DNA of 50,333 nt from a virus. Location: the IMG/VR virus record IMGVR_UViG_3300049478_000004, positions 1 to 50,333 of that record. One strand, written 5' to 3'. Position 1 is the first letter of the stretch. Every line of letters begins with the position of its first letter. Shown here piece after piece: positions 4,698 to 40,474 of the stretch. Both the position numbers and the translations under genes were made by a program. The notes under the pieces are model-generated. The model ran no database searches. It was not told the DNA's origin and saw only the letters and a list, made by a program, of their open reading frames with translations.

Positions 4698-6946
4698 CAG
4701 ACGTTATACCCCTTTCGTCTTAATCTGTCCTGCTGCAGCCGCCATAGTTGTGCTGAAATCTTTTCCACGTCGGCTTCCTCCCTGACGGAAAGGCCGGATA
4801 TATTGATAACCACTCCGCCGTTCTGAGCGTTCGCCACTGGCGATGCTGCCGCTGCTGGCGTGGCTGCCGTTACGCCATAGGCACCCGCCGTGGCGAGCTG
4901 CATTCTCCCCATCTGGAATGGTTCGCCTAACTTTCTTGCGGTCGTTGTGAATTGCGGCACTAATCGGTTCATGTTTGCGAGTGCGTTCTTGGCTCCTGTT
5001 ACCATGTTAATAAAAGAATCCTCGACGAGCGTTCTCGGTGATCCGAAAAGTCCGTTTTTGAAACCTTCCCAGAAACTGCTGGCGATTTCCTTTGCCTTGT
5101 CCCATAGTTTTCCGGGGAGCTCCTTGAGAAATGTCCAGATATTATTAAACATATCTTCAAAAAATCCGGGTATAGCTTCGACCTTTTCCTTTACCCCCTG
5201 AAATAAATTCCGGGCCGCTTCAATTACTTTGTTTTTGAGGTCAGTGAATGCGGTAACGGCATTGTTATATGCATTGACGAAAAATGTCTTTATATTTCCG
5301 GGAAGGTCTTTGAACCACTGGATTACTCCGTTATATAAAGCGATGGCTCCGTTTATTACGTCATCTTTCAGTTTGGTAAACCATGTAACGGCATTTGTCC
5401 ATAGTTCCACAAAGAATGCGCCGACTTTTCCCGGAAGTTCCGAAAAGAATTGAATTACTGCCGCCACTCCAGTTGCGACTGCGTTTGTGATCCACGCCCA
5501 GAATGTAGCAATATAACCCGGTATCGCTGTTATGAAATTCCATAGTGTTGTTAAAATGAATGCCCAAAATTTGATATATAGTCCAATTATTAATCCGAGT
5601 CCGTATGCGATCATCATTGGAAGGTTTTTAATGAAGGTTACTATCGCGTTCCATAGGTTAGTAAAAAATCCAGGTATTGATGCGAAGAAATCTGCGATCG
5701 CTTTACCCACTCCGCTGAAAAATCCGGTTATGCCTCCCCAGATGGAGCTCCAGAGATTTGCAAAAAAACCGGGAATGGATGCAAAGAAATTCGTTATTGC
5801 TGACCACACGGATTTCGCTCCCTCTACAATTCCGTCCCATAGATTTATAAAAAATCCCGATATAGCATCCCAATTTTTTATAATGAGATATGCTAAGGCT
5901 GCGACCGCTGCTCCTATCGCTATAAATGGAAGTAATGGTGCCATCGCTGTCCAAACTGCGACCGCAAATGCGGGAAGGGTAACGGTAATCAACGTCCATA
6001 AGGCTGGGATAAGTGCCCCTGTGATTGCTCCTGCTACGGCCCAAATCGCCAGTTGAACTCCGGGTGGGATCATGTTGGTGAAAAATTCTTTGATGGCTCC
6101 TACTGCGCCGAATTGCTCCACCATATCTTTTACCTTACCGGTAATATCTATGACCGATTGAATTGCTCCTTGTAGGTTGAATGCGTTTGTCAAATCCTTT
6201 CCGATGCTTGCCATGGTCATGTTTACATTATCTTTTAATGTTGAAATCAGGCCGTTTACTGTTTTGGATTGTGCGTCCATCATCCCAGCAAATTTTCCGC
6301 CCTCGCCTGACATATTTGCAAATGCTTTCTGCAGCTCCGGAAATCCGATTTTACCTTCTTTGACCAAGTCTTTAACTTGTGATTCGCTGACTCCGAATTG
6401 CTTTGCAAATTCCGCTATAATCGGGATGCCTCTCCCGGTGAGTTGATTTACGTCCTCGGCAAATAAACGGCCCTGCACTCTGGCTTTTCCGTATAGTTCC
6501 GATAATTCACCGATCGGAATACTAAGACCGGCGGCTACATCTCCAAGGCTTCTTAATGTCGGTTCCAGATCCTCTGCTGATACGCCAAAGGCCAATAATG
6601 ATTTGGCTGATTTTGCTACTTCCGGGAATTCAAACGGTGTCGTTGCTGCAAATTTTTGTAGGCTGGTTAATGTCTTTTGCGCCTCATCTGCACTGCCTAA
6701 AAGCACATTGAAAGCCGTTGTCGTGGTTTCCATGTCTGCGGCTGTTTTTAGCGATGCAATTCCTACTCCGATGATTGCTGTTGCAGCAATTGCCGCCCCA
6801 GCCGCCAGTGCTCCGGCTAACATACTGCTGGCTCCCGATGCTTTGGAGGTCAATGTTGATAAATCATTGCCCGCCTCGCTGACACCGGAAGAAAAACCCT
6901 TTATATCTGCCGTAATTCTAACGAGCAGCTCTGCTACAGTTGCCAA
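4697..6946 (-). CDS. Tail tape measure protein
   Basis: 749 residues, the longest tail gene, placed between the frameshifted tail chaperones and Dit. The N-terminus (ITADIKGFSSGVSEAGNDL, then a Gly/Ala/Ser-rich stretch) is typical of siphovirus tape measures. The centre has hydrophobic membrane-like segments around residues 295-360 and 430-500. It also has imperfect repeats of FFASIPGFF-NLW and WNAI--FIKNLP type that continue to about residue 640. If the lambda scaling of length to residues holds, the tail would be roughly 110 nm; that is an estimate. No lysozyme or peptidase motif was noticed. Confidence 0.93.
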   Translation of the reverse strand: MATVAELLVRITADIKGFSSGVSEAGNDLSTLTSKASGASSMLAGALAAGAAIAATAIIGVGIASLKTAADMETTTTAFNVLLGSADEAQKTLTSLQKFAATTPFEFPEVAKSAKSLLAFGVSAEDLEPTLRSLGDVAAGLSIPIGELSELYGKARVQGRLFAEDVNQLTGRGIPIIAEFAKQFGVSESQVKDLVKEGKIGFPELQKAFANMSGEGGKFAGMMDAQSKTVNGLISTLKDNVNMTMASIGKDLTNAFNLQGAIQSVIDITGKVKDMVEQFGAVGAIKEFFTNMIPPGVQLAIWAVAGAITGALIPALWTLITVTLPAFAVAVWTAMAPLLPFIAIGAAVAALAYLIIKNWDAISGFFINLWDGIVEGAKSVWSAITNFFASIPGFFANLWSSIWGGITGFFSGVGKAIADFFASIPGFFTNLWNAIVTFIKNLPMMIAYGLGLIIGLYIKFWAFILTTLWNFITAIPGYIATFWAWITNAVATGVAAVIQFFSELPGKVGAFFVELWTNAVTWFTKLKDDVINGAIALYNGVIQWFKDLPGNIKTFFVNAYNNAVTAFTDLKNKVIEAARNLFQGVKEKVEAIPGFFEDMFNNIWTFLKELPGKLWDKAKEIASSFWEGFKNGLFGSPRTLVEDSFINMVTGAKNALANMNRLVPQFTTTARKLGEPFQMGRMQLATAGAYGVTAATPAAAASPVANAQNGGVVINISGLSVREEADVEKISAQLWRLQQDRLRRKGYNV

Positions 6947-13013: not shown

Positions 13014-13859
13014 TTATTTCGCTCCTTTCTCGTTCAGATACTCGTCATAGAGATTCGGGTTTTCCTCGATGATCTTGGAAACCGCAGCCGCTTTTGTGAT
13101 CTTATCTTTGGTCGCCATGGCCTCTGCGGATTTCTCGATTTTCCCCCATGCGGTTGCGGGTTCGCCGCCTCCTGCGCTGCCGATCTCGGCAAACAGGCCG
13201 CCCTTGCTGAGTGCTACATCGGCGGCCTTGAGCACGGCCTCAACCTTTGCGTATTCGTCCGGGTTCGCCAGAGCTATTGCCTTGAGAACCGGCCCGAATT
13301 CGTCGGCTTTGATAGCGAGATTTTTATATGTGGCGGCTTTTTCGATGTACTCTTTGGTAACCTTCTCGTTTTCTGCCTTTTTAATCTGAGCTTCCAGCTC
13401 CTGTGCCTTTTTCGCCGTGTCCTCATGTTCCTTCCAGAGTGATTCCAAGGCGGGCTTGATATCCTCCGGCACACCATCGAGGTCGAGCGTTCCATCGGCC
13501 TTTGCCAGTGATTTCTTTTTCTTATCGCCGTATTCATAAGGCGTTGCATAACCGTAACCGGAAAGGTCTGCCAGCATCTTCATGACATTCTTTGGCATCT
13601 CATCCTTATATGCTGATAGCGTCTTGAGGACGCTCTTGCATGCTGCGGTGGCCTTGTCGGAAAGTTTGGCTTGCTTCATTACTTTGTCCACTTCCGGCTC
13701 GTTTTCGAGATCGGTTTCTAAGACCGATTTTAGGATTTCGTCGTAATTCATTTGATCTGTGCCTCCTTCGTCAGATTTTAATATTAAGAATTTCCGTTTA
13801 TTGGCGGCCTTGGGAACAAGGCTCACCTCGAACGTTTCAAGATTTGTGAGTTCGGCCAT
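13014..13859 (-). CDS. Scaffold-like protein starting with the tail end of an XkdF-type protease domain
   Basis: 281 residues. The first ~28 residues (ELTNLETFEVSLVPKAANKR) are the sequence that normally ends XkdF/S78-type prohead protease domains. They are followed by long, charged helices (residues ~145-175, KKAQELEAQIKKAENEK) and a disordered Lys/Ala-rich C-terminus, as in internal scaffolds. The start overlaps the 3' end of the giant protease gene by 23 bases, with AAGGAGG about nine bases upstream. It looks like re-initiation that splits one ancestral protease-scaffold polypeptide in two. Confidence 0.75.
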   Translation of the reverse strand: MAELTNLETFEVSLVPKAANKRKFLILKSDEGGTDQMNYDEILKSVLETDLENEPEVDKVMKQAKLSDKATAACKSVLKTLSAYKDEMPKNVMKMLADLSGYGYATPYEYGDKKKKSLAKADGTLDLDGVPEDIKPALESLWKEHEDTAKKAQELEAQIKKAENEKVTKEYIEKAATYKNLAIKADEFGPVLKAIALANPDEYAKVEAVLKAADVALSKGGLFAEIGSAGGGEPATAWGKIEKSAEAMATKDKITKAAAVSKIIEENPNLYDEYLNEKGAK

Positions 13860-16800
13860 CTCCTTTAGCCTCCTTCCTTATGCCATACCCGCCGACAGAG
13901 AATCCGGTATAATAACCGCTTTTTACGAGTTTCCAAAGGTCGGGGTCTGTTATTCTTACCGATATAACCCACGTTCCTTTCTTCACTTTCTGGTCATTTA
14001 ATGCGAAATCATCCGGGGCGATATAGCTTTCAACTAAATCTGCTTGTGCCTTTTTATGGTGCGAATCTCCAATGATGCGTGACTTCTCCATAAAGAAATG
14101 CGCTGCCATTTCGATTTCGTCCGGGGTCATATGGTCGCCCTGACTGTCGGTTGAGTTTGGTTCCAGCACGACTCCTGTTACAATCTGCTTTTCATCATCA
14201 GCCTTTAGGATGTCGGCATAGTATTGCTTTTCAATCTTGGCGGTCTGGACGTTTATTTTTTGCGGCTTTTCGCCGGGCAGTCCCCAGATTAACCATTTCT
14301 GCCCTTTTCCCTTTAACTCGCTTATTACATCAGCGAGGTCGTGGCTCTCTGCGTAAGGTGTTTGATCTGTCGGCTTATCTATAAGCCACACCCGGTTCTT
14401 GCCATCTCCAACCGGGGCGTATTCGAGAATGAATCGGCCTTTGAGCTTCTTACCGTCGATGAATAGCTCGATCATGTGCTCTCGCCACACACCGGTCTTA
14501 TATGTCCCGGTGTCCTCGGCCCAAAACTTGGCCCATGTGTTTGCCTCGCTGCCTACGCCTCCGGGCGGGCTCAAATATGGCTTTTTGGTTCCTACGTTCA
14601 GCCATTCGGCGGGCTGCTGCAGTTTGAATGTGCCCTGCAGATTGTCCTCCGGTGGGAGGTTTATAAGGCGATCTCCTCCGGGTTCCTTTCGGTTGTCTGC
14701 TGTGGTTCCAAGGAATACCGAAAATCCCCAGAGGCCGTCGTTTGATTGGAATCGAAGGTCACCGTGGAGGCTGTTGTCGGTGTTGAGGAGCTGCGCTTCG
14801 TTGAGGTCTTTTTCGTCCTCTGTGAGACCTCTCCAATGGTGCTGATATACGAACCGGCCCTCTCCGTCTGTCGGGGCCATGTCCTGCCAATTTTTAAGCC
14901 AGAAGTCCGTTGCGGCTGCGGCTCTGGTTCCGCCCTCCGCATCGTCCGCCTTTGTGACGTTGTCGTTTATGGCTCTTTGTATCTGTTTGAGTTTGCGGTT
15001 CAATTCGCCGCTGTCACCGAATCTCCGGATGGCGGTGGGGTGAGGCAGCACGAAATCGGCCTTTTCTCCCAGAGTTTTCTTCGCTGTTTGCCCTAAAGCG
15101 ACTATAATGTGGGGATTCGCTTTCGCCAACTCGTCATCGAGCCATTGTTTCCATTGTGCTATTTCCTCCGGATTCGGCTCTCGCACGTCGCCGGTTTCGT
15201 CGGTCAAGTAAAGCGGCACCACGTTTGTTATGAACACATCATTGCGGTTCAGGCCCAGCGGCTTTAAATATAAATCGTTGAATGTTGCGCCGGATGGCCC
15301 GACGAACGGCTCCCCTCTTGCGGCCTCGATCCTGCCGGGGCTGGCCCCTACAAATCCGATGGCTGCGTTGTCCGGGCCGCTGCTGGGTATGATGTCCGCC
15401 ACTTCCTTTTGGATCACCTTGCCTCGTTCCGCTATGTCGATGATCTGATTGCTTGAATATGGCTCTTTGCGTGTATCGTCTATGTCGAGGACGGTCGGCC
15501 CTAACCACGCCAGCGTTTTTGCTTCCTCATCTGGAATGAGTTCCAAAATCGAAACGGTGAGGATGTCGCCGGGTTTTGCGTCGATCTTTGTTGAGAAGGT
15601 CTTGCCTAGATCGATATATTCCTTGCCTTCGAATGTTTCCGTGTTGGCCCATTGCGGGCCCCCTGCGGATGGTGCTATGCCTCCGTAATAATTGAATATG
15701 CCCTTGTTTTTGGTTTCCTTTTTGTCCAATACAAGGACTTTTATTTCAACGATCCGCTTTAGCTTCGACCACTCGTTTGTGCCGCCCTTCTCATATGGGC
15801 CGGTCGGCGTTTTGGCAACGAGCCCCTCGCTTGCGTCCTGATTGAACGCCCATTTAACGGCTGTCTTGAGATCGTTTTCGTTGTTTACCCATCGAACCGG
15901 CGAGAGTTTGATGTCCCGGCTGCCGATGGTGTTGTATAGGCTTGTTAATGCATCCCGGCGTTCTGTGAATGGTTTTTGACTCAAATCCTCTTTGAAATAT
16001 GGGAGGTCAAAAAGCGTTAACACAACGGTTTCGTCCGGCTCAAACACCGGCTTATCCGCATTAAAACGCATCAGGTCAGGCCGGGATTCCCGCTTGCCGC
16101 CTCGTTCGATGCCGAGGTCTGCGTCCAGGATAAAGTCGCCATTTATTTTGGCGAGTTCTTCCTTGAGTTTCGGGAATTTGTCGATCATGTTGTCGCTGGG
16201 TTTCCCCTCAAACCAGAGCCGGATGTCTGCTCCGTCCTTCGTTACAATGCAACGGAAGCCGTTCCATTTCGGCTCGATATCGATCGGCCATTTATTGTCT
16301 ATCCATTTCAGGAGATCCGTCATGTCGAATGCTTCCGTGGTTCCTGCCATCTGCGGTTTCGGCGGAACGAATGCGATTGACGGTGATAGCTTTGCGATCT
16401 GCTCCTCTGCAGCTCCCGGTTTTTTCAGGACAGCATCGATATAATGCAGACCATTTGGCTCCTCCCGGTCGTTTACGCACACATTTTCAAAGCACGGCCT
16501 GTGTTCGATCAGCTCCGGGTTCGTCCAGAAGTCAAAACTGGCCTTATTAAAAAATGATTTGTGGCCCGGATGTGCAAAGGCTCCGTCTGTTTCCGTGCTG
16601 GGCACGGTGATTATGGCAAGGCCGCCCGGCATGAGGCTGCGGAATATTTCGGTCATTATGTTTTCTGTGTCCGGTAAATGCTCCAGAAAATGATTCGCCC
16701 TTATAACGGCAGCGGTGTCGCTCTGTATCGGGAGCCCATATCTCATATCCGTTACGATGTCGACTCCGTCGTAATTATCCGAATCGATCCCGATGAAACC

Positions 16801-17625
16801 GTCCGGCTTGCTGTTCCCGCATCCGAGGTCGTATCTGGGGCCCTCTGGGGCTTGTTCCTTGTACGTTTCCCAATCGGGCATACATGAGGCCCCTGTGTCT
16901 GCTTTTACGATTTCACGCTTGAATGTGGGCTTCCTACGCAGCACCAGATCATAGCAGGAAACATAATCGCCATGGCTGCCCTGCGGGTTCAAAATAAAAT
17001 GCAGGATGTCCTCTTTGTTCGGGTCGAGGATATTCCTTACCGGGAGCCACACATTATCGCTCTGGATGAGGTAATGCCCGCCCTCGTCCGATTCCGCCCT
17101 GAATAGAACGTCGATGTCGTTCGGGTTCTGTTTGTCCTTTGCTGCCGATCCTACGATCGAAACGAAATCACGCACCACCATGGTTTCCTTTGGCAGCGCA
17201 TAAAAATTCTTTACAATGTCATATTTTTTGGTGGGCTTGAAGTTCTCCACGGCCCGGTAAAGGTCGCCGGTCTGATCTATATCAAATTTGCGGTTCTTCA
17301 TTTCCTCAATAACCCAGATAGCAGCATTTACAAAGTTTTCGATGGCCTGATTCTTTTCCTTGGCTCCGCCATACCACTGATTGAGCCTATGCCATGCGGA
17401 TAATATTTCCGTATCGGGCGCATCGGTCAGAACGTCGGGCCGCATCTCCTCCAGTGTGAGCTTTTCAATCTGGGCGGCTTGTGCTTGCTGCTGTGTTCGT
17501 TTGTTGGCTCTGGCCTTGCCTCCCGATTGTGGAATCGCCGCTCGTTGAATCTCTGTAAACAGCCATTCCGGGAGGAATTCCTTTGCTTTATCAAGCATAG
17601 CCTCCAAATACTCAGACGATGGCAT
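13837..17625 (-). CDS. Giant capsid protease fused to nucleotidyltransferase, methyltransferase, DNA ligase, uracil-DNA glycosylase and LigD-like phosphoesterase domains
   Basis: 1262 residues, ATG at 17625 with GGAGGG upstream. Domains in order: nucleotidyltransferase-like ~100-240 (G159-S160, D170, D172 in NDIDVLF); SAM methyltransferase-like ~260-400 (DLGCGNSKPDGFIGID at 266-281, HFLEHLP); ATP-dependent DNA ligase ~440-715 (catalytic Lys453 in KWNGFR, EGLVAK at 600-605, later OB part); family 4/5 uracil-DNA glycosylase ~755-890 (GEPFVG at 771-776, HPTAIRRF at 862-869); LigD 3'-phosphoesterase-like ~920-1090 (His929/930, then H954-D956-R958 in LHGDLRF, IDGKKLKGRF at 1056-1065); XkdF protease ~1140-1250 (VTGVVLEPNSTDSQGDHMT). 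It occupies the prohead protease place between minor head protein and scaffold. The protease part could deliver the repair enzymes into the capsid; that is inference. Confidence 0.83.
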   Translation of the reverse strand: MPSSEYLEAMLDKAKEFLPEWLFTEIQRAAIPQSGGKARANKRTQQQAQAAQIEKLTLEEMRPDVLTDAPDTEILSAWHRLNQWYGGAKEKNQAIENFVNAAIWVIEEMKNRKFDIDQTGDLYRAVENFKPTKKYDIVKNFYALPKETMVVRDFVSIVGSAAKDKQNPNDIDVLFRAESDEGGHYLIQSDNVWLPVRNILDPNKEDILHFILNPQGSHGDYVSCYDLVLRRKPTFKREIVKADTGASCMPDWETYKEQAPEGPRYDLGCGNSKPDGFIGIDSDNYDGVDIVTDMRYGLPIQSDTAAVIRANHFLEHLPDTENIMTEIFRSLMPGGLAIITVPSTETDGAFAHPGHKSFFNKASFDFWTNPELIEHRPCFENVCVNDREEPNGLHYIDAVLKKPGAAEEQIAKLSPSIAFVPPKPQMAGTTEAFDMTDLLKWIDNKWPIDIEPKWNGFRCIVTKDGADIRLWFEGKPSDNMIDKFPKLKEELAKINGDFILDADLGIERGGKRESRPDLMRFNADKPVFEPDETVVLTLFDLPYFKEDLSQKPFTERRDALTSLYNTIGSRDIKLSPVRWVNNENDLKTAVKWAFNQDASEGLVAKTPTGPYEKGGTNEWSKLKRIVEIKVLVLDKKETKNKGIFNYYGGIAPSAGGPQWANTETFEGKEYIDLGKTFSTKIDAKPGDILTVSILELIPDEEAKTLAWLGPTVLDIDDTRKEPYSSNQIIDIAERGKVIQKEVADIIPSSGPDNAAIGFVGASPGRIEAARGEPFVGPSGATFNDLYLKPLGLNRNDVFITNVVPLYLTDETGDVREPNPEEIAQWKQWLDDELAKANPHIIVALGQTAKKTLGEKADFVLPHPTAIRRFGDSGELNRKLKQIQRAINDNVTKADDAEGGTRAAAATDFWLKNWQDMAPTDGEGRFVYQHHWRGLTEDEKDLNEAQLLNTDNSLHGDLRFQSNDGLWGFSVFLGTTADNRKEPGGDRLINLPPEDNLQGTFKLQQPAEWLNVGTKKPYLSPPGGVGSEANTWAKFWAEDTGTYKTGVWREHMIELFIDGKKLKGRFILEYAPVGDGKNRVWLIDKPTDQTPYAESHDLADVISELKGKGQKWLIWGLPGEKPQKINVQTAKIEKQYYADILKADDEKQIVTGVVLEPNSTDSQGDHMTPDEIEMAAHFFMEKSRIIGDSHHKKAQADLVESYIAPDDFALNDQKVKKGTWVISVRITDPDLWKLVKSGYYTGFSVGGYGIRKEAKGDGRTHKS

Positions 17626-17639
17626 AGGTGCTTCCCTCC

Positions 17640-17663
17640 TTTACTCTTTTACTCCTTTACTCC
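17640..17663 (-). repeat. Octamer array, 3 units
   Basis: TTTACTCT, TTTACTCC, TTTACTCC (plus strand). It supplies the TAA stop of the minor head gene (17657-17659) and the leader of the giant protease gene, which carries its own GGAGGG closer to the ATG. Confidence 0.9.
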
Positions 17664-18586
17664 TTGAACCGAACGCCAAGCGTACAACGGCATGAAGGGT
17701 GCAATGGTGGAGTATCTATGTTTCCGGCTGCTGTGCTGAAAGGCTGGCCCAGCGTGGTAGTTACGCCCGCCATTTCCTTGCACTTGTCACAAAGTCGGTC
17801 ATCCGGTGTTAAAATCCAATATATTTCGTATGTGCTCGGCGGCAGGATTCCTTGATCGGCACCTTGCTGCAGCATCTCGTTAAATCCTTGATTCGAGGCC
17901 CGCATGAGTTCCGTCCGTGCTATATTCTCGGCCCTATATTGAAGCAGCCGTTTTGAATATTTATCCGCCATTGTCTGGGCTCGTTCGTATTTCTTGCCGC
18001 TTGAGATCAGCCGGTCACGATAGTTGGTAACGGCTCCCGCTTGCCGGGTCGTGAGTCCGATAAGTGATTTCAAATGTTCGGCTGTCTTGTCCGCTCCATA
18101 ACCAGCTTCCGCCGCCGATCGGACTGCCTCCCGAAGTGCGAGGACGGTTTCATTCGAGACTTCCGTTACTAACTCCGCTGTTCTGGCCTTTATCCATGAA
18201 AGGCTCCGGGGTGATCCGGTATCGAACACAACGTCCCTTTGCTCCATCGGAAGCGTGACAATCATTTCCTGTCCGCTCCGGTTCAGCGTGTCCTCCATCA
18301 ATGGTTCTGCTGCCGTGAGTTCGGCCTTGAATGCATCCCATGGCACGGCGTTTTCGATCTTGACTGAATCGTTGTTATATATCCCCTGCAGCATTTGCTT
18401 GATGTCAGCCTCGCTGCGGGTCTTATCGGCTGCCCTGATCACCATATCCGTCATGGCTTCGGTGTTCTTATCGGCTGCCGCTTGTATGATTTTCCATGCC
18501 CTGCTGTTCGGCGTTTTATCTGCGATCGGGCCGCCTGTGTGCAGCTCCGGTGGTTGGATATCTTTTTGTTTAAAGATCCACGGCAT
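17657..18586 (-). CDS. Minor head / head morphogenesis protein (Mu gpF-like)
   Basis: 309 residues. The C-terminal part has the family signature: ENIARTELMRASNQG, then DDRLCDKCKEMAG and PPLHPSCRCTLGV, with three cysteines and a histidine that probably bind zinc. The helical N-terminal half resembles the portal-binding part of SPP1 gp7/Mu gpF proteins. It lies downstream of the portal, separated by three small accessory genes. Involved in head assembly and DNA ejection in relatives. Confidence 0.9.
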   Translation of the reverse strand: MPWIFKQKDIQPPELHTGGPIADKTPNSRAWKIIQAAADKNTEAMTDMVIRAADKTRSEADIKQMLQGIYNNDSVKIENAVPWDAFKAELTAAEPLMEDTLNRSGQEMIVTLPMEQRDVVFDTGSPRSLSWIKARTAELVTEVSNETVLALREAVRSAAEAGYGADKTAEHLKSLIGLTTRQAGAVTNYRDRLISSGKKYERAQTMADKYSKRLLQYRAENIARTELMRASNQGFNEMLQQGADQGILPPSTYEIYWILTPDDRLCDKCKEMAGVTTTLGQPFSTAAGNIDTPPLHPSCRCTLGVRFKE

Positions 18587-18636: not shown

Positions 18637-18759
18637 TTAGGCAGATTCTTCCGCTGATTTTGGAATCTCTGCGCCGCATGTCTGGCAGTCCCACGGCTGA
18701 TCGGTTGTATCGGATGAATACCAATATTCTCCGCATTCCGGGCATTTACGCTTTACCAT
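18637..18759 (-). CDS. Small zinc-ribbon protein (40 residues)
   Basis: Reads MVKRKCPECGEYWYSSDT...WDCQTCGAEIPK with two CxxC pairs 18 residues apart, a rubredoxin-like knuckle. Start has AGGAGG at good spacing. It is between Acb2-like and minor head genes, in the late operon. Function unknown. Confidence 0.72.
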   Translation of the reverse strand: MVKRKCPECGEYWYSSDTTDQPWDCQTCGAEIPKSAEESA

Positions 18760-18770
18760 GACTGTTCCTC

Positions 18771-19034
18771 CTATTCATTCCGGGCGATGGCTGCATTGGC
18801 CCACATGATGGATTCCTCCAACTTCGTTAAAAATAAGCTCTGCTCTCTGGATGGCGGGGTGTTCTCCAAAATCAGATAAGCCATCTCCTTTGCTGCGTCC
18901 CTGATTTTCTGGTATCGTTCGACCTGATCGCCCTTTGGAGGATGATAGGTGAATTTACTCTCGATATCGCTGCGGCCTCCTCGGATAAATTCCTTGCGGG
19001 CCGGGCTGCGTTTGTATTCATAGGACTCTGCCAT
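18771..19034 (-). CDS. Acb2/Tad1-type hairpin protein, putative cyclic-nucleotide sponge against CBASS or Thoeris
   Basis: 87 residues. The C-terminal two thirds fit the Acb2/Tad1 hairpin family: FTYHPPKGDQVERYQKIRDA (28-47), then a helix with NTPPSREQSLFLTKLEESI (58-76) and MWANAAIARNE (77-87). Proteins of this family form small helical oligomers that bind cyclic di- and trinucleotides or gcADPR and so blunt CBASS/Thoeris signalling. The N-terminal 25 residues are basic and not part of the core. It sits in the late head operon beside a SpoIIID-like gene. The family call comes from remembered motif patterns, not from a search; which ligand it binds is unknown. Confidence 0.78.
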   Translation of the reverse strand: MAESYEYKRSPARKEFIRGGRSDIESKFTYHPPKGDQVERYQKIRDAAKEMAYLILENTPPSREQSLFLTKLEESIMWANAAIARNE

Positions 19035-19050: not shown

Positions 19051-19311
19051 TCAGCAAGCTGTTCTGATCATTTCGAATTTGTCATGAGTGGCCTTACCGC
19101 CGTTGATATGGCGCACGGCTTTGTGGCGTTCCATAATAACCGCCACCTCATAGGACAGGTCTGGGTCGATATCCGGAAGCCGATATCTCAAATCTTTGTG
19201 GATGGTGGATTTTGAATAACCCAATTCCGTCATGGCCTGTCTAATCGTTTTGTTTGTTTCAACGATATAGTTTCCAATTCTTACGGCACGTTCTTCGATG
19301 TTCTCTCTCAT
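19051..19311 (-). CDS. SpoIIID-like sporulation transcription regulator
   Basis: 86 residues from the ATG at 19311 (GGAGG ten bases upstream); an upstream GTG at 19329 lacks a site. The sequence closely follows Bacillus SpoIIID: IEERAVRIGNYIVETNKTIR, YSKSTIHKDLRYRLPDIDPD and HKAVRHINGGKATHDKF. The STIHKDL segment is the recognition helix of the HTH. SpoIIID in the host switches mother-cell genes between SigE and SigK stages. Here it lies between portal and Acb2-like genes in the late operon, so it would be made during particle production. The similarity is strong; the phage role is unknown. Confidence 0.87.
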   Translation of the reverse strand: MRENIEERAVRIGNYIVETNKTIRQAMTELGYSKSTIHKDLRYRLPDIDPDLSYEVAVIMERHKAVRHINGGKATHDKFEMIRTAC

Positions 19312-19329
19312 CGTTTTGTCATCCTCCAC

Positions 19330-20598
19330 TTATTTATTAATTGGCAAATTGGCGAGCTTCAGGAGGTACTTCTCCAGCTCCTCGTTCGGGAACAGCGGCA
19401 TACCGGCCCCGGAAAGATCACTCAGATATTTGCCAAGTTCTTCTAACGGAATCGATTCAATATCGCCCGGCACGATCGCCGGTAATGCTTCGATGCTGAA
19501 TGAGTTCAGTTCAAAAAGGCGGGGCACGGCATATCTGTTGAACACGTCGGCTATGCTGTTTAACCATGCCCCGATCGCCACGGCGAATAATTCCGTCTTA
19601 CTGCTTGAAAGTGCGAAACTGCCGACGTTCTTTGTGCCTAAAAGGATAAAATCTGCCAGAACCGTCATTGCGATCCGGCTGTCGTATCTCTGGACAATGG
19701 TGTCGGTGTCAAACTGGCGACGGCCTCCGGTTGATAGCAGGGTAAGGTCATAAATTTTATTATTGTTCTCGTCATATGAAAGCGGGAACACAATTCCTTC
19801 CTGCTCATCCCGGCGAATATTGCGGACGATCTTCTTTATCTCCGCTAATACGGCCTTGTCCCCTGCGCTGGCTGTACTATCCAGAAGCTCCGCTGGCACC
19901 CAAGCCACCGGCAGACCGGCGAGGTCACGCTCGATGCCGATGCCCTCTATGCTCTCGATATTTTTCTTGTAATACCATGGGCGATACGCATTACGCAGAA
20001 CGCTCCGGCCCTCCGGGTTTCCCTTGCGGGTTACTGTCCGGAACAGCAGGGCCTTTTCCATAGGTATGCGGACGAGCTCATATGTCGGCGGCCCCATCTG
20101 CCACATGGCGATAATGTCGCCCGCTTCGTCAAACTCCCACTCGTTGAGCGTTTCCTGCGCTCTGATCGGTATCTTGCGCCAGCCGATGCGTCCGTCATTG
20201 AATCGGCTGTGTGTTTTCGGGTCTGCGGTCGGGCCTAATCTCCGTTTATAAACGAGTTCGTGATAGCTCCATCCGAACACCAACATGCTCAAAATTTCGC
20301 AGATCAGTTCGCTCCACGGCTGGTTCATGTCGTTCATGCAACTATCAAGAAAATCTGCCGCCTCTGTGTCCTTGTCTGAATCGCTCACTGGTTCGACTTG
20401 CCATAAAACTTGCCGAATTAGCATTTCTATTGCAAAAAGGATAGAGCCCACGGTTGGGTCGTTATCCCGCATTTCCTTATATGTCCGGATTCCTTTTAGC
20501 CCTTGGAGTTGTGTGAGCTGCTCCTCGTAAACATAACCAGCCGCCCGATCGAGGCCGGTGTTGCCTAGCTCCATGTACATTCTTCCGTTAATTGCCAA
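19330..20598 (-). CDS. Portal protein (DUF935/Mu gp29-like)
   Basis: 422 residues between large terminase and the head genes. The opening (EEQLTQLQGLKGIRTYKEMRDND) and the segment MLVFGWSYHELVYKRRLG match DUF935-type portals, in which 'fGwsyhEivyk' is characteristic. The length fits a dodecameric portal subunit. The C-terminal ~60 residues are probably the tunnel and crown. Confidence 0.88.
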   Translation of the reverse strand: MAINGRMYMELGNTGLDRAAGYVYEEQLTQLQGLKGIRTYKEMRDNDPTVGSILFAIEMLIRQVLWQVEPVSDSDKDTEAADFLDSCMNDMNQPWSELICEILSMLVFGWSYHELVYKRRLGPTADPKTHSRFNDGRIGWRKIPIRAQETLNEWEFDEAGDIIAMWQMGPPTYELVRIPMEKALLFRTVTRKGNPEGRSVLRNAYRPWYYKKNIESIEGIGIERDLAGLPVAWVPAELLDSTASAGDKAVLAEIKKIVRNIRRDEQEGIVFPLSYDENNNKIYDLTLLSTGGRRQFDTDTIVQRYDSRIAMTVLADFILLGTKNVGSFALSSSKTELFAVAIGAWLNSIADVFNRYAVPRLFELNSFSIEALPAIVPGDIESIPLEELGKYLSDLSGAGMPLFPNEELEKYLLKLANLPINK

Positions 20599-25508: not shown

Positions 25509-25532
25509 TTTATTCCTTTACTCTTTTATTCC
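25509..25532 (-). repeat. Octamer array, 3 units
   Basis: TTTATTCC, TTTACTCT, TTTATTCC on plus; in the transcript it joins one gene's stop (25532-25534) to the next ATG (25507). Confidence 0.88.
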
Positions 25533-25801
25533 TATTTTCCATCTCTTATTTTCACTTGAAGGGCGTATATCTTGATCAGCGATCGTTCCGCCTGATTATA
25601 TATCGCCTTTACCCTCCAGACCTTGCTTCCGATTTGCTTTGCTACTTGTTCATATGTTTTGTTCTTGAAATATATCGCCTCAAAGACATTCCATTGCCAA
25701 AGTAATCCTCGGTGTTCCATATATGCCTCGGATATATTCGGATCAATCATTTTGAGGATATCCTTCCTCTGTTGAGCGGTCATGTGTGCCATATATGCCA
25801 T
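25532..25801 (-). CDS. Small HTH protein, sigma-like
   Basis: 89 residues from ATG 25801 (GAGGAC upstream). MAYMAHMTAQQRKDILKMID, WNVFEAIYFKNKTYEQVAKQ, VWRVKAIYNQAERSLIK: the second half has the spacing of a sigma region-4 or phage late-regulator HTH. Could control late genes; not certain. Confidence 0.6.
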   Translation of the reverse strand: MAYMAHMTAQQRKDILKMIDPNISEAYMEHRGLLWQWNVFEAIYFKNKTYEQVAKQIGSKVWRVKAIYNQAERSLIKIYALQVKIRDGK

Positions 25802-25820
25802 TTGCTTGTCCTCCTCTGTC

Positions 25821-26015
25821 TTATTTCTTCCGGAAGGTATCAGCAGCCGGGCATGTGGCCCAATGCGACACACGGCCCACGATGATGTCACCGTCCTCTG
25901 TAACGACGCTTACCTTCTCCGGGTCACAAGGTATGTGTTTTCCCGCTTTACTTGTGATCCAAACAATAGGAAAACCGCAGCCTTTACACTCCACCTGTGA
26001 ATGGTTTTTTTCCAT
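25821..26015 (-). CDS. Small zinc-binding protein
   Basis: 64 residues from ATG 26015 (GGAG nine bases upstream). VECKGCGFPIVWITSKAGKH, IPCDPEKVSVV and HWATCPAA give CxxC...C...H..C metal ligands. This layout recurs in many phages as a predicted DNA/RNA-binding zinc ribbon. Overlaps the upstream gene by 32 bases. Confidence 0.65.
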   Translation of the reverse strand: MEKNHSQVECKGCGFPIVWITSKAGKHIPCDPEKVSVVTEDGDIIVGRVSHWATCPAADTFRKK

Positions 26016-28968: not shown

Positions 28969-29961
28969 TTATTCGGGGTTTTCGATCGGGGACTCCATCA
29001 TCGCATCAAACTCCATGCCCTTTATGAACATGCGCTCATCTCGCTGCTCCCCAAGGTTTACCACGATGCTGTTTCCGATCAGCCGGGAATATAAACGCTC
29101 TTGTATGCAATCACTGAGCCGGGCCCGGAGCTCCGCTTCGGAAAAGTTTGTCGTTGTTATGATCGGGCGGTTCTGGGCCGTTCTCCGGTCATATACTTGT
29201 TCGATCATATTCAGGGCCCACTCTGTTGTGCTGTTCGCCATCAGGTCATCGAAAACGAGGAGGCCGCAATTACACACCCTGTCCATGATGTCGCTCTTTG
29301 TTTTTCGCTTTTCCCTGCTGCTGTTGTAACCATAACTCGTATCATCGAAGGTTTCTTTTATATCGTCGAGGAATTGCTCAACCGATATGAACACGGCATC
29401 GCCACCCTTCATGATGATCTCTTTGGCTATGACGGAGGCGATATGGCTTTTCCCGATGCCGGTGCTTCCAGTGAAGGTCAGGCCCATGCCGATCTTCGTC
29501 GGCTCCGGCCATATTTTAATATATCGCTTTGCCCTGTCCACCATTTCTGTATTGCCTTTATTGATTCGGAAATTCTCAAAACTGGCATTCTGCAGTTTCG
29601 GCGGGATGCCGCAGTTCATTGCCTTGTTCTGTCTATATTCGATTTGTTCCCTCCTGTGCCTCTCCGCTTCCTCCGCCTCTCGCTTTGCCTTGACGCATTG
29701 GCATTCCCCCCGACTTATAATGCCGCCGCCGTATGGCGTGATTGTCGGCTTCACAAAGGCCCCGCAATCATCGCATATGTCCCCGGCTAATTCGAGACCG
29801 TATTGTGAAAATATCGCAGGAAGATCCGTCAGGTCACTGTATCTCATAAAAATGTCGCCGCTGGACACTATTGCCGCCGCTTCCGGGGTCAGCATTTCGA
29901 GGTATCTTGGAAAGTCCTTTGCATTCCAGCTATTAACTTCCTGTTCTTGACATGAATTCAT
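28969..29961 (-). CDS. DnaC/DnaI-type helicase loader (AAA+)
   Basis: 330 residues from ATG 29961; the frame is open further up but that part overlaps the initiator gene in another frame. A zinc region (CDDCGAFV ... RGECQCVKAK) precedes the AAA+ core with Walker A FTGSTGIGKSHIA, Walker B GLLVFDDLMA and sensor IITTTNFS. The arginine-finger region follows (LSDCIQERLYSRLIGN). It loads the host replicative helicase at the origin in the upstream gene. Confidence 0.9.
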   Translation of the reverse strand: MNSCQEQEVNSWNAKDFPRYLEMLTPEAAAIVSSGDIFMRYSDLTDLPAIFSQYGLELAGDICDDCGAFVKPTITPYGGGIISRGECQCVKAKREAEEAERHRREQIEYRQNKAMNCGIPPKLQNASFENFRINKGNTEMVDRAKRYIKIWPEPTKIGMGLTFTGSTGIGKSHIASVIAKEIIMKGGDAVFISVEQFLDDIKETFDDTSYGYNSSREKRKTKSDIMDRVCNCGLLVFDDLMANSTTEWALNMIEQVYDRRTAQNRPIITTTNFSEAELRARLSDCIQERLYSRLIGNSIVVNLGEQRDERMFIKGMEFDAMMESPIENPE

Positions 29962-31168
29962 CGGCAAGTTCTCGTTCAACTCTCCTTCTGAATATTTCGA
30001 ATTTTGCATTGTCATATCTTGGATCACTGTCGATTCTGAGGAATGTTTCTTTGACTGATTCTCCCGGAAGTCTGATATAGAGTCCTTCATCGTCGAATTC
30101 TGGTTCGGCTGCTGGTCTGGCCTTAACTGGATCACCCTGTTTATTATCTCGTTTAATGCTTGTGGTTCCGGCATTCTTTATCCCTCCCATGCGCTTCATC
30201 TGTGCTTGTATTGTGCTTGATTTATCTCTGAAAAACCTGACCTTTTTTAAGGTCGTGGCCCAGAAATGATCCGGGCTGGTATATATGTAATTCAGCATGG
30301 CCCTGATTTCGTCCCAAGTAAAGCCCATCGTGCCATTCGGCGGCCCGATCCGGTTCAGCCGCTCCATCTCCTTTACTTCCTCCAGCAGTTCCTTATTAGT
30401 CGGCGTGAGCTCCTCGCTGATCTGCTTATCGTTCGGGAAATACTCAGCCACCTTCCTGAAGAATCCGATCGTTAATTCGACCGCCTCTTTCGGCTGCTCA
30501 TCGAAAGGATTTATAATCGGCTTTTTTATTTCTCCATTTTCAATTTTTGAAATTGCATTTTCAATTGCGGGCGAGTCCGGCTCTGCCGGGCCTCCTTCTT
30601 TTATATCTTTAGAATCGTTATTTATTAATTCTTTATTTATTAATTCTTTATTTATTAGATCATTATTTATTAGTCTGCGGTTTTCCACATGTGGGCTTCC
30701 CACAAGTGGTTTTCCCACATGTGGAATTTCAACAAGTGGCTTTTCTTGTTCCGTTGGTTCCACTTGTGGGTTTTCATCAAGTGGGACAAGTTGTTTATCT
30801 TTTGATTGATTTGCCTTTCTTTTAAGCATGGACTGCGTCATCTTTTTGGCCTTGATCTTCGGATCGACTTCGATAGGTACTTCGTAAACGATGCGCTCCC
30901 ATTCGATGATCTTTCCGTTTTCTTTTATCGGTCGGCGGGTAAGATATCCTTCGGCCTCCAGTTCTGTCAACGCCGATCTTACGCTGCTTGAACCGTCAGG
31001 CGTTACCTTCGATAAATGTTCGATGCTGATATTCCAATTATCGGGTTTTGATAAAAGATAAGTCAATAATCCTATTGCTTTCCATGTCAGCATTCCGTTA
31101 TTAAGAATGTCTTTGTCGATCATAACAAATGGGTTTTCACGGTTGTGACAAACTCTGATTATGCTCAT
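29933..31168 (-). CDS. DnaD-like replication initiator carrying an internal origin
   Basis: 411 residues. N-terminal winged HTH ~1-100 (MIDKDILNNGMLTWKAIGLL, TRRPIKENGKIIEW) and a C-terminal DnaD-type part (~245-330, IGPPNGTMGFTWDEIRAMLN). Between residues 127 and 185 lies a low-complexity pentapeptide region (VEIPHVGKPLVGSPHVEN, then LINKELINKELINND). Its DNA is the iteron and AT-rich array at 30618-30784. The gene directly precedes the helicase loader, and the protein probably binds the iterons inside its own gene, like lambda O. Confidence 0.87.
   Translation of the reverse strand: MSIIRVCHNRENPFVMIDKDILNNGMLTWKAIGLLTYLLSKPDNWNISIEHLSKVTPDGSSSVRSALTELEAEGYLTRRPIKENGKIIEWERIVYEVPIEVDPKIKAKKMTQSMLKRKANQSKDKQLVPLDENPQVEPTEQEKPLVEIPHVGKPLVGSPHVENRRLINNDLINKELINKELINNDSKDIKEGGPAEPDSPAIENAISKIENGEIKKPIINPFDEQPKEAVELTIGFFRKVAEYFPNDKQISEELTPTNKELLEEVKEMERLNRIGPPNGTMGFTWDEIRAMLNYIYTSPDHFWATTLKKVRFFRDKSSTIQAQMKRMGGIKNAGTTSIKRDNKQGDPVKARPAAEPEFDDEGLYIRLPGESVKETFLRIDSDPRYDNAKFEIFRRRVERELADEFMSRTGS
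30618..30784. other. Candidate origin of replication: iterons plus AT-rich unwinding repeats
   Basis: Six 10-bp palindrome-like iterons of CCACWWGTGG type begin at 30685, 30700, 30715, 30730, 30760 and 30775, all in a 15-bp register (one slot at 30745 is degenerate). Beside them TTATTTATTA repeats four times at 30618, 30633, 30648 and 30663, also exactly 15 bp apart. Iterons next to an AT-rich block inside an initiator gene is the lambda-type origin layout. Confidence 0.85.
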
Positions 31169-31234: not shown

Positions 31235-31369
31235 TTACTTCCACTTCTTCTCTTGCCACTCTTTACTCTGAATCGCTTTGAAATCGGCCCCGCACCAATT
31301 ACAAAAAGTAACGGCTCCATATGCTGGGCGGATCACAACATCCCGTATGTCGAACGGATTACTTCTCAT
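31235..31369 (-). CDS. Small zinc-ribbon protein (44 residues)
   Basis: MRSNPFDIRDVVIRPAYGAV then TFCNWCGADFKA; one CxxC knuckle in a pattern common in phage early regions. The ATG at 31369 has no strong site, so confidence is modest. Precedes the initiator gene. Confidence 0.55.
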   Translation of the reverse strand: MRSNPFDIRDVVIRPAYGAVTFCNWCGADFKAIQSKEWQEKKWK

Positions 31370-31675
31370 TATATATTGGACTTGTCCCGATTGCAACCAC
31401 CTAAAATAATGCGTATGTCAAAATTGGTCATTCATTTTACTCCTTTACTCCATTACTCTTTTACTCTTGGATAGCAGTGTTTTACTCATTGTATAGTTAT
31501 CTGATAGCATATCGTGTTATCTGGTGCAATATGGTACACAATCGGTTGGTTTCTTTTTACTCTTTTACTCATTTATTCTTTTACTCTTAGCATAAAAACA
31601 GGTCGAATTATGCGAAAAAATTATTTTAAAAAAAATAAAAGGCCCGGATTTTTCGTCCGGGTCTTTTGCCACTCT
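31370..31675. repeat. Intergenic stretch with two octamer arrays and a terminator
   Basis: No gene of useful size. Array 1 at 31436-31467 (TTTACTCC, TTTACTCC, ATTACTCT, TTTACTCT); array 2 at 31556-31587 (TTTACTCT, TTTACTCA, TTTATTCT, TTTACTCT); plus a lone TTTACTCA at 31481. A terminator ends the stretch. Confidence 0.85.
31643..31661 (-). terminator. Bidirectional terminator after the recombination operon
   Basis: CCCGGA / TCCGGG stem within AAAAGG...TCTTTT; followed by A/T runs on both sides. On the minus strand it ends the transcript of the annealing-protein operon. Confidence 0.8.
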
Positions 31676-33312: not shown

Positions 33313-33539
33313 TTGTTTCACCTCCTTTACTCCTATTATACAACCAGAATGTAAGTAAATCCACTGAAATAATATGGTAATCACTATATTTGCAGCGGTT
33401 ATGTGTACTTAATGTAATTTATTAGGAGTAAATGAAGCGAACAAAAAGTATTAAAGTGCCGAATTGTAATAATTAGGGCTTGTCCTTAATAAAATATTAA
33501 GGTATAATCTGATAGGTATAATTCTGACCAGAAAGGTAT
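33313..33539. promoter_or_regulatory. Lysogeny switch: divergent control region
   Basis: Plus-strand promoter TTGTCC (33480-33485), 17 bases, TATAAT (33503-33508); its spacer is the perfect palindrome CCTTAATAAAATATTAAGG (33484-33502), a likely repressor operator. GGCTTGTCC overlaps the -35. On the minus strand TATAAT (33335-33340) lies before the Cro-like gene with a weak -35. Confidence 0.75.
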
Positions 33540-33917
33540 GTGGTAAAATTGGCTTATCGAGAGTTCGATAAATCCTTATTTATTCAGAGAATGAAAAGGT
33601 TGCGGGCTGACAAAGATTTAACCCAGAAACAGTTGGGACTAATGTTGGACTGCTCCCCTGCCGCGATTGCTCATTGGGAACGTGGCGCGAGAGTCCCGTC
33701 CGTTGACCTTCTCATTACCGTTGCAAATATTTTTGATTGCTCACTCGAATACATCATGGGCGTATCTGATTTTAGGCATGAAAATGAGGCCATAAAATAT
33801 ATGCTGGAAAAAATGGTCGATACCGGGCTTGTTGATGAAGATGGATATGTGAAGCAGAATATTGTTGATCGGTTTATTGGATATATTAAGGCACTTGAGC
33901 AAATACCTATGAAATGA
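33540..33917 (+). CDS. CI-like Xre-family repressor
   Basis: 125 residues, GTG start. HTH at 18-55: MKRLRADKDLTQKQLGLMLD, CSPAAIAHWERGARVPS. The C-terminal half is a helical dimer domain and has no LexA-type Ser/Lys peptidase, so release would need something other than RecA cleavage. Convergent with 33966-34118 across a shared terminator. Confidence 0.85.
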   Translation: MVKLAYREFDKSLFIQRMKRLRADKDLTQKQLGLMLDCSPAAIAHWERGARVPSVDLLITVANIFDCSLEYIMGVSDFRHENEAIKYMLEKMVDTGLVDEDGYVKQNIVDRFIGYIKALEQIPMK

Positions 33918-34359: not shown

Positions 34360-34947
34360 TCATTTCCGTTTCTCCCATAGGCCGATCATGTCCATTATGT
34401 CGCCGGGTACGACGTGCGTGTAAACCATTGTCGTGCTCACGTCGGTATGACCGAGGGCCTCCTGTACTTTTCGGATGTTCTTTGTCTTTTCCAGATATCG
34501 GGTTGCGAAGGTATGACGGAGCATATGCGGGGTGATATGCTTTTCGAGCCCGGCCCGATCCCTATAGTTGTTGACCATCTGTTCTATATACCGAGGCTGC
34601 AGCTGCCCGCCTTTGTGTGTCGTGAATACAAACTCGCAGCGGCCCAACTGCTGGCCCTGTCGTGTCCTCCAGTGCTGTAGCTCCGTCAGGTACTCGCCGC
34701 CGATCCAGATGACGCGGTCTTTGCCTCCCTTACCGTCTACTATATAAATGCTGCCGGAATTGAGGTCTATGTCCGTCCATTTCACGTCGATGCCCTCCGA
34801 GAGCCGCGCTCCGGTATTCAAATAGAAATTCAGCAGCACACGGTTTCTCTCGCCAGTGAAATATCTCATATTCGGAATTGCGACGATCGCCTCGACCTCA
34901 TCCTCAGTCAAAAACTTTGGAAGTCTTTTCCTATTTCTCTTTGCCAT
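34360..34947 (-). CDS. Small tyrosine recombinase (catalytic domain only)
   Basis: 195 residues from ATG 34947 (GGAGG upstream). Catalytic Arg in NTGARLSEG, HxxR in TPHMLRHTFATRYL, the later His in ALGHTDVSTT and Tyr in TMVYTHV are present. The usual N-terminal SAM-like core-binding domain is missing (full integrases are 300-400 residues). It could be an integrase or a plasmid multimer resolvase of XerC/D type. Confidence 0.85.
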   Translation of the reverse strand: MAKRNRKRLPKFLTEDEVEAIVAIPNMRYFTGERNRVLLNFYLNTGARLSEGIDVKWTDIDLNSGSIYIVDGKGGKDRVIWIGGEYLTELQHWRTRQGQQLGRCEFVFTTHKGGQLQPRYIEQMVNNYRDRAGLEKHITPHMLRHTFATRYLEKTKNIRKVQEALGHTDVSTTMVYTHVVPGDIMDMIGLWEKRK

Positions 34948-35009
34948 GGGCCTTGTCCTCCAATAATACGTTTTCTGTATAAATTCCGTAGTCATTCACA
35001 TTAGTTTTA

Positions 35010-35046
35010 ATTATAAATCAGCTTGTCCCATTTTGCAAGGACAAGC
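35010..35046 (-). promoter_or_regulatory. Recombinase promoter with GCTTGTCC inverted repeat
   Basis: Minus-strand TTGCAA (35033-35038), 17 bases, TATAAT (35010-35015). GCTTGTCC (35021-35028) and GGACAAGC (35039-35046) form an 8-bp inverted repeat around it, a candidate operator. Confidence 0.75.
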
Positions 35047-37793: not shown

Positions 37794-37821
37794 TGGGCTT
37801 GTCCTCCTTTGTGACGATGAT

Positions 37822-38961: not shown

Positions 38962-39258
38962 TTATTGGTGTTCAACATCCCATTTTGCCACTATACTGAT
39001 GCATTCCAAGATTTCTATGCGAGTTAAACCTATAAAATCCGCTTTTTTTCTCCCTACAAAGAATATCGTGCCGCATAAATTAAATCGGTTCCGTGGAAGA
39101 TCGTAAATGAGGCCCTCCTCGTTGCAAAGGATCAGGATATCTTCCCGGACTTGTACTGGTTCGATCAGTCCTCCGACGATGGCTTGCATCTCCTCAAGTT
39201 CGCCTTTGATGTCTTTAGCATATGGTGGTTTATTTGGTTCGCAAACCAATATTGTCAT
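38962..39258 (-). CDS. DUF3846-like protein
   Basis: 98 residues from ATG 39258 (GAGGTG upstream). LEEMQAIVGGLIEPV, LILCNEEGLIYDLPRN and FNLCGTIFFVG follow the DUF3846 pattern of phage and ICE proteins. First gene of the parA transcript. Function unknown. Confidence 0.78.
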   Translation of the reverse strand: MTILVCEPNKPPYAKDIKGELEEMQAIVGGLIEPVQVREDILILCNEEGLIYDLPRNRFNLCGTIFFVGRKKADFIGLTRIEILECISIVAKWDVEHQ

Positions 39259-39278
39259 GAATTTCACCTCTGAGAATA

Positions 39279-39311: not shown

Positions 39312-39340
39312 ATTATACCAACAAATTTTTAGCTTGTCCA
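39312..39340 (-). promoter_or_regulatory. Promoter of DUF3846-parA operon with GCTTGTCC box
   Basis: Minus-strand TGGACA (39335-39340), 17 bases, TATAAT (39312-39317). GCTTGTCC (39332-39339) covers the -35. Confidence 0.8.
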
Positions 39341-39366: not shown

Positions 39367-39864
39367 TTAATTCTCGCCATTGTTCCCGGATTCCGGTTCC
39401 TCTGCTTCTTTTTCGGGCTGCGGCTCCGTTTTTATTTCTTTTATATCGAATGTGAGTTGATAATTGCTGTCCTTACTTAGTATGTCAACGATCCTCATGA
39501 GCCGGTCAGATATTTCCTCGCCCTTTGTTTTGCAGCACAGTCGAATGGTGAAGGAGTCTGGTTCCAGAATGTTGTTATTAGCCATTTTTTTTGTGATCTC
39601 CTTTTCTGCCGTGACCGGCATATAATTGGGTTCCTTGTTTATGATCTTTTTGGCATAAGGTGTTTTCGGTGGGCTGATGTTTCCTTTAGAAGTGGGCAGT
39701 CCTAAATTACGCCGCATGTCATAAAGGTTCCCTTCTTTACAATCCCACTTTTCGGCAAGGGTTTTGATGCTCTGATTGGACAATTCTTCCGATAGAACTT
39801 TTCGTCTATCATCCATCTCTAAATTCTTAAAATCTTCAAATGTATTCACGTTTAAACTATTCAT
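39367..39864 (-). CDS. Putative replication/maintenance protein, paralogue 1
   Basis: 165 residues. NQSIKTLAEKWDCKEGNLYD is an HTH-like start (LAEKWDCKEGNLYDMRR); the C-terminus (DRLMRIVDILSKDSNYQLTF then DIKEIKTE) is a beta-ended domain that also closes the next gene (HEYHLTLTIKENIK). The two genes overlap by eight bases, so they are a tandem pair of related proteins. Role unknown; proximity to par suggests plasmid control. Confidence 0.55.
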   Translation of the reverse strand: MNSLNVNTFEDFKNLEMDDRRKVLSEELSNQSIKTLAEKWDCKEGNLYDMRRNLGLPTSKGNISPPKTPYAKKIINKEPNYMPVTAEKEITKKMANNNILEPDSFTIRLCCKTKGEEISDRLMRIVDILSKDSNYQLTFDIKEIKTEPQPEKEAEEPESGNNGEN

Positions 39865-40450
39865 TTTTTATATTCTCCTTTATGGTTAAAGTAAGATGAT
39901 ATTCATGACCCGAAAAGAAAATCTTTGAAATAGCTTGTATCTTTTGAATGACTTCTTTTCCGGTCAAATTCATTTCACTAAAGTGTAATGATAAAATATA
40001 GGCGAATATTTCGTCAATGTCCTTCGATGATAAGGCTTTTTGCTTTGGTGATGTGGGCGCAGTTTCTCCGCTGTTCCTTGTGTGCGTCTGGCTTCCGAGG
40101 CCATACCTATAAATAAAACCATCTAAGGCTGCTCTCGATCCCCACGCTTGACCGATTTCTTGTTTCGTATGTCGTTTTAACAATTCTGTTAATGCGATTA
40201 CCCTCTTATCGGTGTTATACGATTTGAACTCGTCAAGTGGCGTAATGGTGTCATATGGACTCGTAATAATTAACTCACCAGCTTTCGTGTATTCTTTTTT
40301 TGCTTTCCCTGTTAGCATGTCTGAATAGAAACTCACGCCTCTACTTGCGACTTTGTTTTTAGATGCGTTTGCAATAGCTTTCTTTTCTCTTACATCGTCC
40401 GAATATAGTTGACGGGGATCATCGTTTTCGGTTTCGCCATTCTGATACAT
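39857..40450 (-). CDS. Putative replication/maintenance protein, paralogue 2
   Basis: 197 residues from ATG 40450 (GGAGGAG upstream). EFKSYNTDKRVIALTELLKR, HTKQEIGQAWGSRAALDGFI has an HTH (QEIGQAWGS); the end has the same YxLTxxIKE motif as paralogue 1. It has its own promoter 40642-40670 with a GGCTTGTCC box. Function unknown. Confidence 0.55.
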   Translation of the reverse strand: MYQNGETENDDPRQLYSDDVREKKAIANASKNKVASRGVSFYSDMLTGKAKKEYTKAGELIITSPYDTITPLDEFKSYNTDKRVIALTELLKRHTKQEIGQAWGSRAALDGFIYRYGLGSQTHTRNSGETAPTSPKQKALSSKDIDEIFAYILSLHFSEMNLTGKEVIQKIQAISKIFFSGHEYHLTLTIKENIKNE

Positions 40451-40474
40451 GTCGAGCACTCCTCCTAATATCAA

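Follow-up and report, generated by a model that had tools for sequence, protein, structure and literature searches.

A SpoIIID family member is encoded in a phage head operon

What would a regulator of spore development do in a phage, and on which promoters would it act? The question is raised by a gene in an IMG/VR virus record of 50,333 bp, which we analyzed over its full length (the window) using ORF-based gene calls. The window encodes a terminase, portal, capsid, tape measure, endolysin, integrase, ParA, and Rep. As originally predicted, the gene of interest lies between portal and Acb2 genes, with the two neighbors matching Portal_Mu/phrog_113 and Acb2_Tad1 (PF24729). The region is arranged as follows.

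19330–20598, minus strand: portal protein (phrog_113 / Portal_Mu), gene upstream of spoIIID
19051–19311, minus strand: SpoIIID-like regulator gene, 86 aa, ATG at 19311, stop ending at 19051
18771–19034, minus strand: Acb2/Tad1-hairpin protein, putative anti-CBASS sponge (PF24729, 70 bits), downstream of spoIIID
18637–18759, minus strand: small zinc-ribbon-like ORF, 40 aa, every match under its gathering cut-off
17657–18586, minus strand: head morphogenesis MuF-like protein, closing the portal-MuF cargo slot

The SpoIIID-like gene is preceded by a GGAGG ribosome-binding site and lies 16–19 bp from the co-directional genes on either side; an alternative GTG start at 19329 would add 6 aa, for a total of 92 aa. 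Nearby, 13837–17625 encodes a 1262-aa head-module protein with methyltransferase-like and ATP-dependent DNA ligase-like stretches and a C-terminal head maturation protease. Upstream of the terminase genes, 25532–25891 encodes a sigma-70 region 4-like protein (below the gathering cut-off) with GGAGGACAAGC at its ribosome-binding site, which is possibly a late activator.

Homology to SpoIIID over nearly the whole protein was confirmed by agreeing Pfam, PHROG, and PDB matches. The protein scores 97.5 bits against Pfam PF12116 (cut-off 27, E = 4.9e-28), the PHROG 11726 profile ("sporulation stage III protein D") covers residues 2–82, approximately its full length (E = 2.8e-21), and residues 1–80 align to residues 1–80 of B. 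subtilis SpoIIID (PDB 2l0k, E = 1.4e-24). With an AlphaFold model (pLDDT 89), Foldseek returned 2l0k as the sole significant PDB match (E = 1.2e-5, TM 0.74), the next having an E of about 1. Chance is ruled out as the source of this homology. At 98.2 bits the protein falls below the TIGR02844 equivalog cut-off of 111.5, which 160 of the 166 genomes having a match pass; it is a member of the SpoIIID family and not an equivalog.

The recognition helix is conserved and the basic region is weakened

The helix-turn-helix and a C-terminal basic region have been reported as the two regions essential for DNA binding by SpoIIID. We compared the residues of both with those of 53 distinct chromosomal SpoIIIDs.

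19192–19215, minus strand: recognition helix SKSTIHKD, codons 33–40, as compared with the 53 chromosomal SpoIIIDs
19072–19122, minus strand: altered C-terminal basic region, codons 64–80, with R70N, H76, D77, and E80

The STIHKDL recognition helix is intact, as had been claimed, and reads SKSTIHKD as in chromosomal SpoIIID. Each of its residues is the commonest in the chromosomal set or, for I37, also occurs there, and the protein fits the pattern S-K-S-T-V/I-H-K-D. The HINGGKAT tail, the second motif on which the original prediction relied, is present, but it is exactly where the phage protein departs from all 53 (R70N, K/R76H). R70 is found in 53 of 53 chromosomal proteins and is N in the phage, position 76 is K or R in the former and H in the latter, and phage residues D77 and E80 are acidic. 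The net charge of the region is +2, as compared with +3 to +6 (mean 4.4) in chromosomal SpoIIIDs, with R67, G71, G72, A74, T75, and K78 retained. With respect to DNA contacts, the recognition helix is kept, but the basic region is weakened and R70 is lost.

The expected relationship to host SpoIIID was upheld in part: the protein sits on a long branch with Bacilli-type SpoIIID (support 97/91 once the longest branches were removed), but a placement outside this group was not rejected (AU test, p = 0.34). The closest match in 398 genomes reaches 54% identity, which gives no indication of recent copying from a sampled host. Where bacterial genomes have an additional SpoIIID copy, it proved to be a fragment or a weak match, with no prophage copies among them. 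Because of the Bacilli-type affinity and a Bacillota MAG that holds a portal relative at 65%, a spore-forming host is plausible; searches with ParA relatives and DNA indicated no host.

The gene recurs in the head modules of distant phages

A SpoIIID-like ORF was absent from the examined flanks of the 80 nearest portal relatives and 26 TerL relatives, where the portal-MuF junction is empty or holds unrelated small genes. In one such slot (L018, 10116–10418) we noted by eye a small AbrB-like protein, another regulator-type gene. A single-protein search for the SpoIIID gene in viral contigs gave no match, and the examined flanks of fecal putative "phage" scaffolds held no chromosomal spoIIID neighborhood. 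Larger, distant phages (G402, G404, G406, G410, and G482) do carry a SpoIIID-like gene within the same kind of head module, where the order is portal, MuF, SpoIIID, small CxxC protein, protease; in G410 the gene immediately follows the portal gene. The hypothesis that the window gene and the G402-type genes share one origin was weakly rejected (AU p = 0.018), with long branches as a caveat. Separately, the Lysinibacillus phage LC76P1 (L008, 3998–4276) encodes a diverged SpoIIID-like protein with the altered recognition helix SKSYVHFLV, and its 165-kb genome has no GGACAAGC.

Candidate SpoIIID boxes lie on early and lysogeny promoters

The B. subtilis SpoIIID consensus is TAGGACAAGC (PMC11180830), and the core GGACAAGC was fixed before any sites were counted. 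The window contains 8 copies of it, against 1.9 expected (order-3 model). Five of these are intergenic, compared to 0.10–0.16 expected from Markov simulations (maximum 2 in 300; Poisson P = 8e-7). Six same-composition scrambles were absent from the window, and GGACAAGC itself was absent from relatives' intergenic DNA, of which about 100 kb was scanned. The degenerate consensus WWRRACARNY showed no enrichment in the window (29 vs 27 expected). Allowing one mismatch to GGACAAGC gave 64 matches in the whole window against 38 expected, a count we did not use because most of the matches lie on the coding strand of coding regions. The five intergenic boxes and one near-exact GGACAAGT all fall on strong sigma-A promoters, in each of which a perfect TATAAT follows a 17-bp spacer.

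33478–33485, minus strand: SpoIIID box GGACAAGC, forming the -35 of the XRE promoter TTGTCC-17-TATAAT (33480–33508, plus strand)
33540–33917, plus strand: CI-like XRE repressor (HTH_3), with the box on its promoter
35021–35028, minus strand: SpoIIID box GGACAAGC, in the spacer of the integrase promoter TTGCAA-17-TATAAT (35010–35038, minus strand)
35039–35046, plus strand: second SpoIIID box, inverted, abutting the integrase -35 on its upstream side
34360–34947, minus strand: tyrosine integrase; the ORF opens at 34995 and a GGAGG site indicates the ATG at 34947
39332–39339, minus strand: SpoIIID box overlapping the -35 of TGGACA-17-TATAAT (39312–39340, minus strand), with a DUF3846 gene (38962–39267) downstream
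40632–40639, minus strand: SpoIIID box right after the -10 of TTGACC-17-TATAAT (40642–40670, minus strand), with an early gene (39857–40474) downstream
31380–31387, minus strand: near-exact box GGACAAGT in the spacer of TTGCAA-17-TATAAT (31368–31396, minus strand), with the rep gene (29933–31168) downstream
25804–25811, minus strand: GGACAAGC at the ribosome-binding site of the sigma70_r4-like gene (GGAGGACAAGCAAATG), which may be chance
37797–37804, minus strand: GGACAAGC at a ribosome-binding site (GGAGGACAAGCCCAATG), which may be chance

The suggestion that the phage controls its own genes through SpoIIID-like sites was borne out to the extent that candidate boxes occur on phage promoters, but these are early and lysogeny promoters and not those of late genes. 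Across 24 noncoding promoter regions, the two most-shared 8-mer groups were the SpoIIID box and a near-palindromic operator, TGTNGACWWAGTAAACA.

Additional repeats and genes in the window

The operator TGTNGACWWAGTAAACA is dispersed, with 15 strand-wise matches against 2.6 expected, including sites at 23973, 40753, 42142, 42569, 42671, 43710, 43754, 45351, and 45981. Sites lie upstream of plus-strand accessory genes (amidoligase, DUF932, Sie-like) and near a ParB-methyltransferase gene, and are likely to be those of a dimeric repressor. Phased octamer repeats (GGAGTAAA / AGAGTAAA, minus strand) occur at many gene junctions and resemble tandem Shine-Dalgarno-like repeats.

8601, 17626, 18593, 24235, 25495, 31430, 31550, 46962, 47740: phased octamer repeats

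The two ends of the record hold a diverged duplicate (211–787 / 49030–49597, 71–79% identity) in or near the tail-fiber gene, and 41563–42046 encodes a likely ParDE-type toxin-antitoxin pair, with the ParE toxin matching PF05016 and the preceding small ORF a presumed antitoxin.

Boxes occupy the same promoter positions in related SpoIIID-bearing phages

In G402, G404, G406, and G410, six of seven exact boxes are noncoding, and five of these fall on promoter elements, in the three arrangements also seen in the window. As controls, we used 13 records of portal or TerL relatives with no SpoIIID seen near either gene (the region checked), in which 1 of 29 boxes is noncoding; the hosts of these controls may not form spores. 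The noncoding share differs between the two sets (Fisher 2e-5), with the reservation that sites in related phages are not independent, two of the six noncoding ones being homologous. Whole-record counts of GGACAAGC fail to separate SpoIIID phages from controls, and position alone does.

The integrase promoters of G402 and of G406, whose integrase is 54% identical, carry boxes; searches with the integrase yielded few relatives. In the viral collection, the XRE repressor has its nearest relatives in these SpoIIID-bearing phages, and all ten orthologous XRE loci have CTTGTCC at the -35. In an alignment of the window's XRE promoter with those of eight relatives, CTTGTCC and TATAAT were the conserved blocks, with CTTGTCC (GGACAAG) invariant; since it overlaps the -35, promoter constraint may explain part of this invariance. 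SpoIIID is present in 5 of 5 records longer than 80 kb that have the orthologous XRE, and both SpoIIID and a box upstream of XRE are missing from the six records whose XRE hits are unrelated. In an IMG/VR scan for TAGGACAAGC upstream of TATAAT, one of the 50 long records among the matches listed had SpoIIID, and this was the known G404.

SpoIIID-bearing viruses outside this lineage (G400, G407, G409, G411, and G412) have boxes only within ORFs, or none. The 152-kb G412 contains two inverted GGACAAGC pairs covered by small ORFs (5100–5122 and 82496–82528; L229, L230), one of them about 1.3 kb from its SpoIIID gene.

A proposed phage regulon and its alternatives

We consider it reasonably probable that the phage uses the SpoIIID-like protein as a regulator of its own promoters, probably as a repressor that acts late on early and lysogeny promoters. 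It would probably bind GGACAAGY boxes as a monomer, through its unchanged recognition helix. Candidate boxes overlap the -35, spacer, or start site of the sigma-A promoters that drive the CI-like repressor, integrase, and replication operon as well as two early operons. Given the position of the gene within the head and packaging operon, its product is expected late, and on binding it would shut early and lysogeny promoters. The late-made protein would block them sterically, turning those genes off while the late program is kept on. Steric interference at sites overlapping promoters is how SpoIIID represses in B. subtilis (PMC517825). Activation instead of repression is possible at the repressor promoter. 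That the phage protein is the binder, that it represses, when it does so, and how it affects lysis and lysogeny are all four points that we infer. In favor of the regulon are the homology, predicted fold, helix identity, box enrichment, promoter positions, and recurrence in SpoIIID-bearing phages. Against it we count the unenriched WWRRACARNY, the weakened basic region, and the other SpoIIID-bearing viruses that lack promoter boxes. Since SpoIIID sites are found at the repressor, integrase, and replication promoters of the phage itself, a spore-development switch has probably been rewired to run the phage's life cycle.

A larger claim, which we hold only tentatively, is that a temperate lineage built SpoIIID into its lysis-lysogeny circuit. 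The boxes fused to the repressor -35 and on the integrase and replication promoters would mean that phage SpoIIID sets the switch, with host SpoIIID feeding the sporulation state into the same operators.

It is unlikely that the protein is instead directed at the host, acting on SpoIIID-dependent mother-cell genes to delay or misdirect sporulation as phage sigF/sigG homologues do. With the recognition helix unchanged, host boxes should be readable, late expression is compatible with such a role, and phage sporulation sigma factors and the listing of spoIIID in gut phages are precedents; however, this leaves unexplained the boxes on the phage repressor, integrase, and early promoters and their recurrence in SpoIIID-bearing relatives. 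The original suggestions that the phage disturbs mother-cell timing or traps itself in spores gained no specific support. We also find it improbable that host SpoIIID reads the boxes, such that prophage integrase and repressor follow mother-cell development and the phage copy substitutes for the host protein or competes with it. The box does equal the B. subtilis consensus, and in that species SpoIIID sites have been mapped at spoIVCA, the recombinase gene of the skin element, among other genes (PMC517825). Against this, the box-bearing promoters are of the sigma-A type, and the boxes track the phage SpoIIID gene in our sample (the five long records, and the six with neither). Harder still to credit is that GGACAAG boxes are operators of another phage regulator, such as the CI-like XRE, with SpoIIID as unrelated cargo. 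XRE orthologues and boxes do co-occur, and one box is on XRE's own promoter, where autoregulation is usual, but the boxes are single, non-palindromic, and match the SpoIIID consensus, and the separate near-palindromic TGTNGACWWAGTAAACA better suits a dimeric XRE repressor. Recent, functionless cargo decaying in an accessory slot would fit the portal-MuF junctions of relatives and the long branch, but is very improbable given an open frame with a ribosome-binding site, an unchanged recognition helix despite 54% best identity, and repeated occurrence in the head module of relatives.

Relation to known systems

The phage protein resembles B. subtilis SpoIIID (PF12116, TIGR02844, 2l0k) in full-length homology at 54% identity, predicted fold, recognition helix, and a GGACAAG(C) box overlapping promoters; it differs in its place in a phage head operon, a score below the TIGR equivalog cut-off, a weakened basic C-terminus, and boxes on phage sigma-A promoters. 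Phage-borne spoIIID has been published in the moron or host-takeover category (PHROG 11726; Schwartz et al. 2023 mBio, PMC10294663), and therefore the proposed regulon alone is new. Those earlier genes were listed by homology with no target, and a 2025 review gives phage spoIIID as not validated (PMC12713726), whereas the present case adds boxes on lysogeny and early promoters of the phage itself, and a head-module lineage as well. The sigF/sigG-like sigma factors of phages (Schwartz et al. 2022, PMC9429907) are likewise homologues of sporulation transcription regulators; they cut spore yield and were shown to act on host sporulation genes, whereas the evident targets here are phage promoters. 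As in CI/Cro-type lysis-lysogeny switches, the candidate operators overlap repressor, integrase, and replication promoters, but the candidate regulator is a monomeric SpoIIID-type HTH protein with non-palindromic boxes and a gene in a late operon.

Phage sporulation genes have been catalogued with targets that are mostly guesses, and here the phage genomes themselves display candidate target sites, giving a specific hypothesis on short promoter fragments. If true, a developmental regulator would have been reused as part of a phage switch, and sporulation would be linked to the lysis-lysogeny decision.
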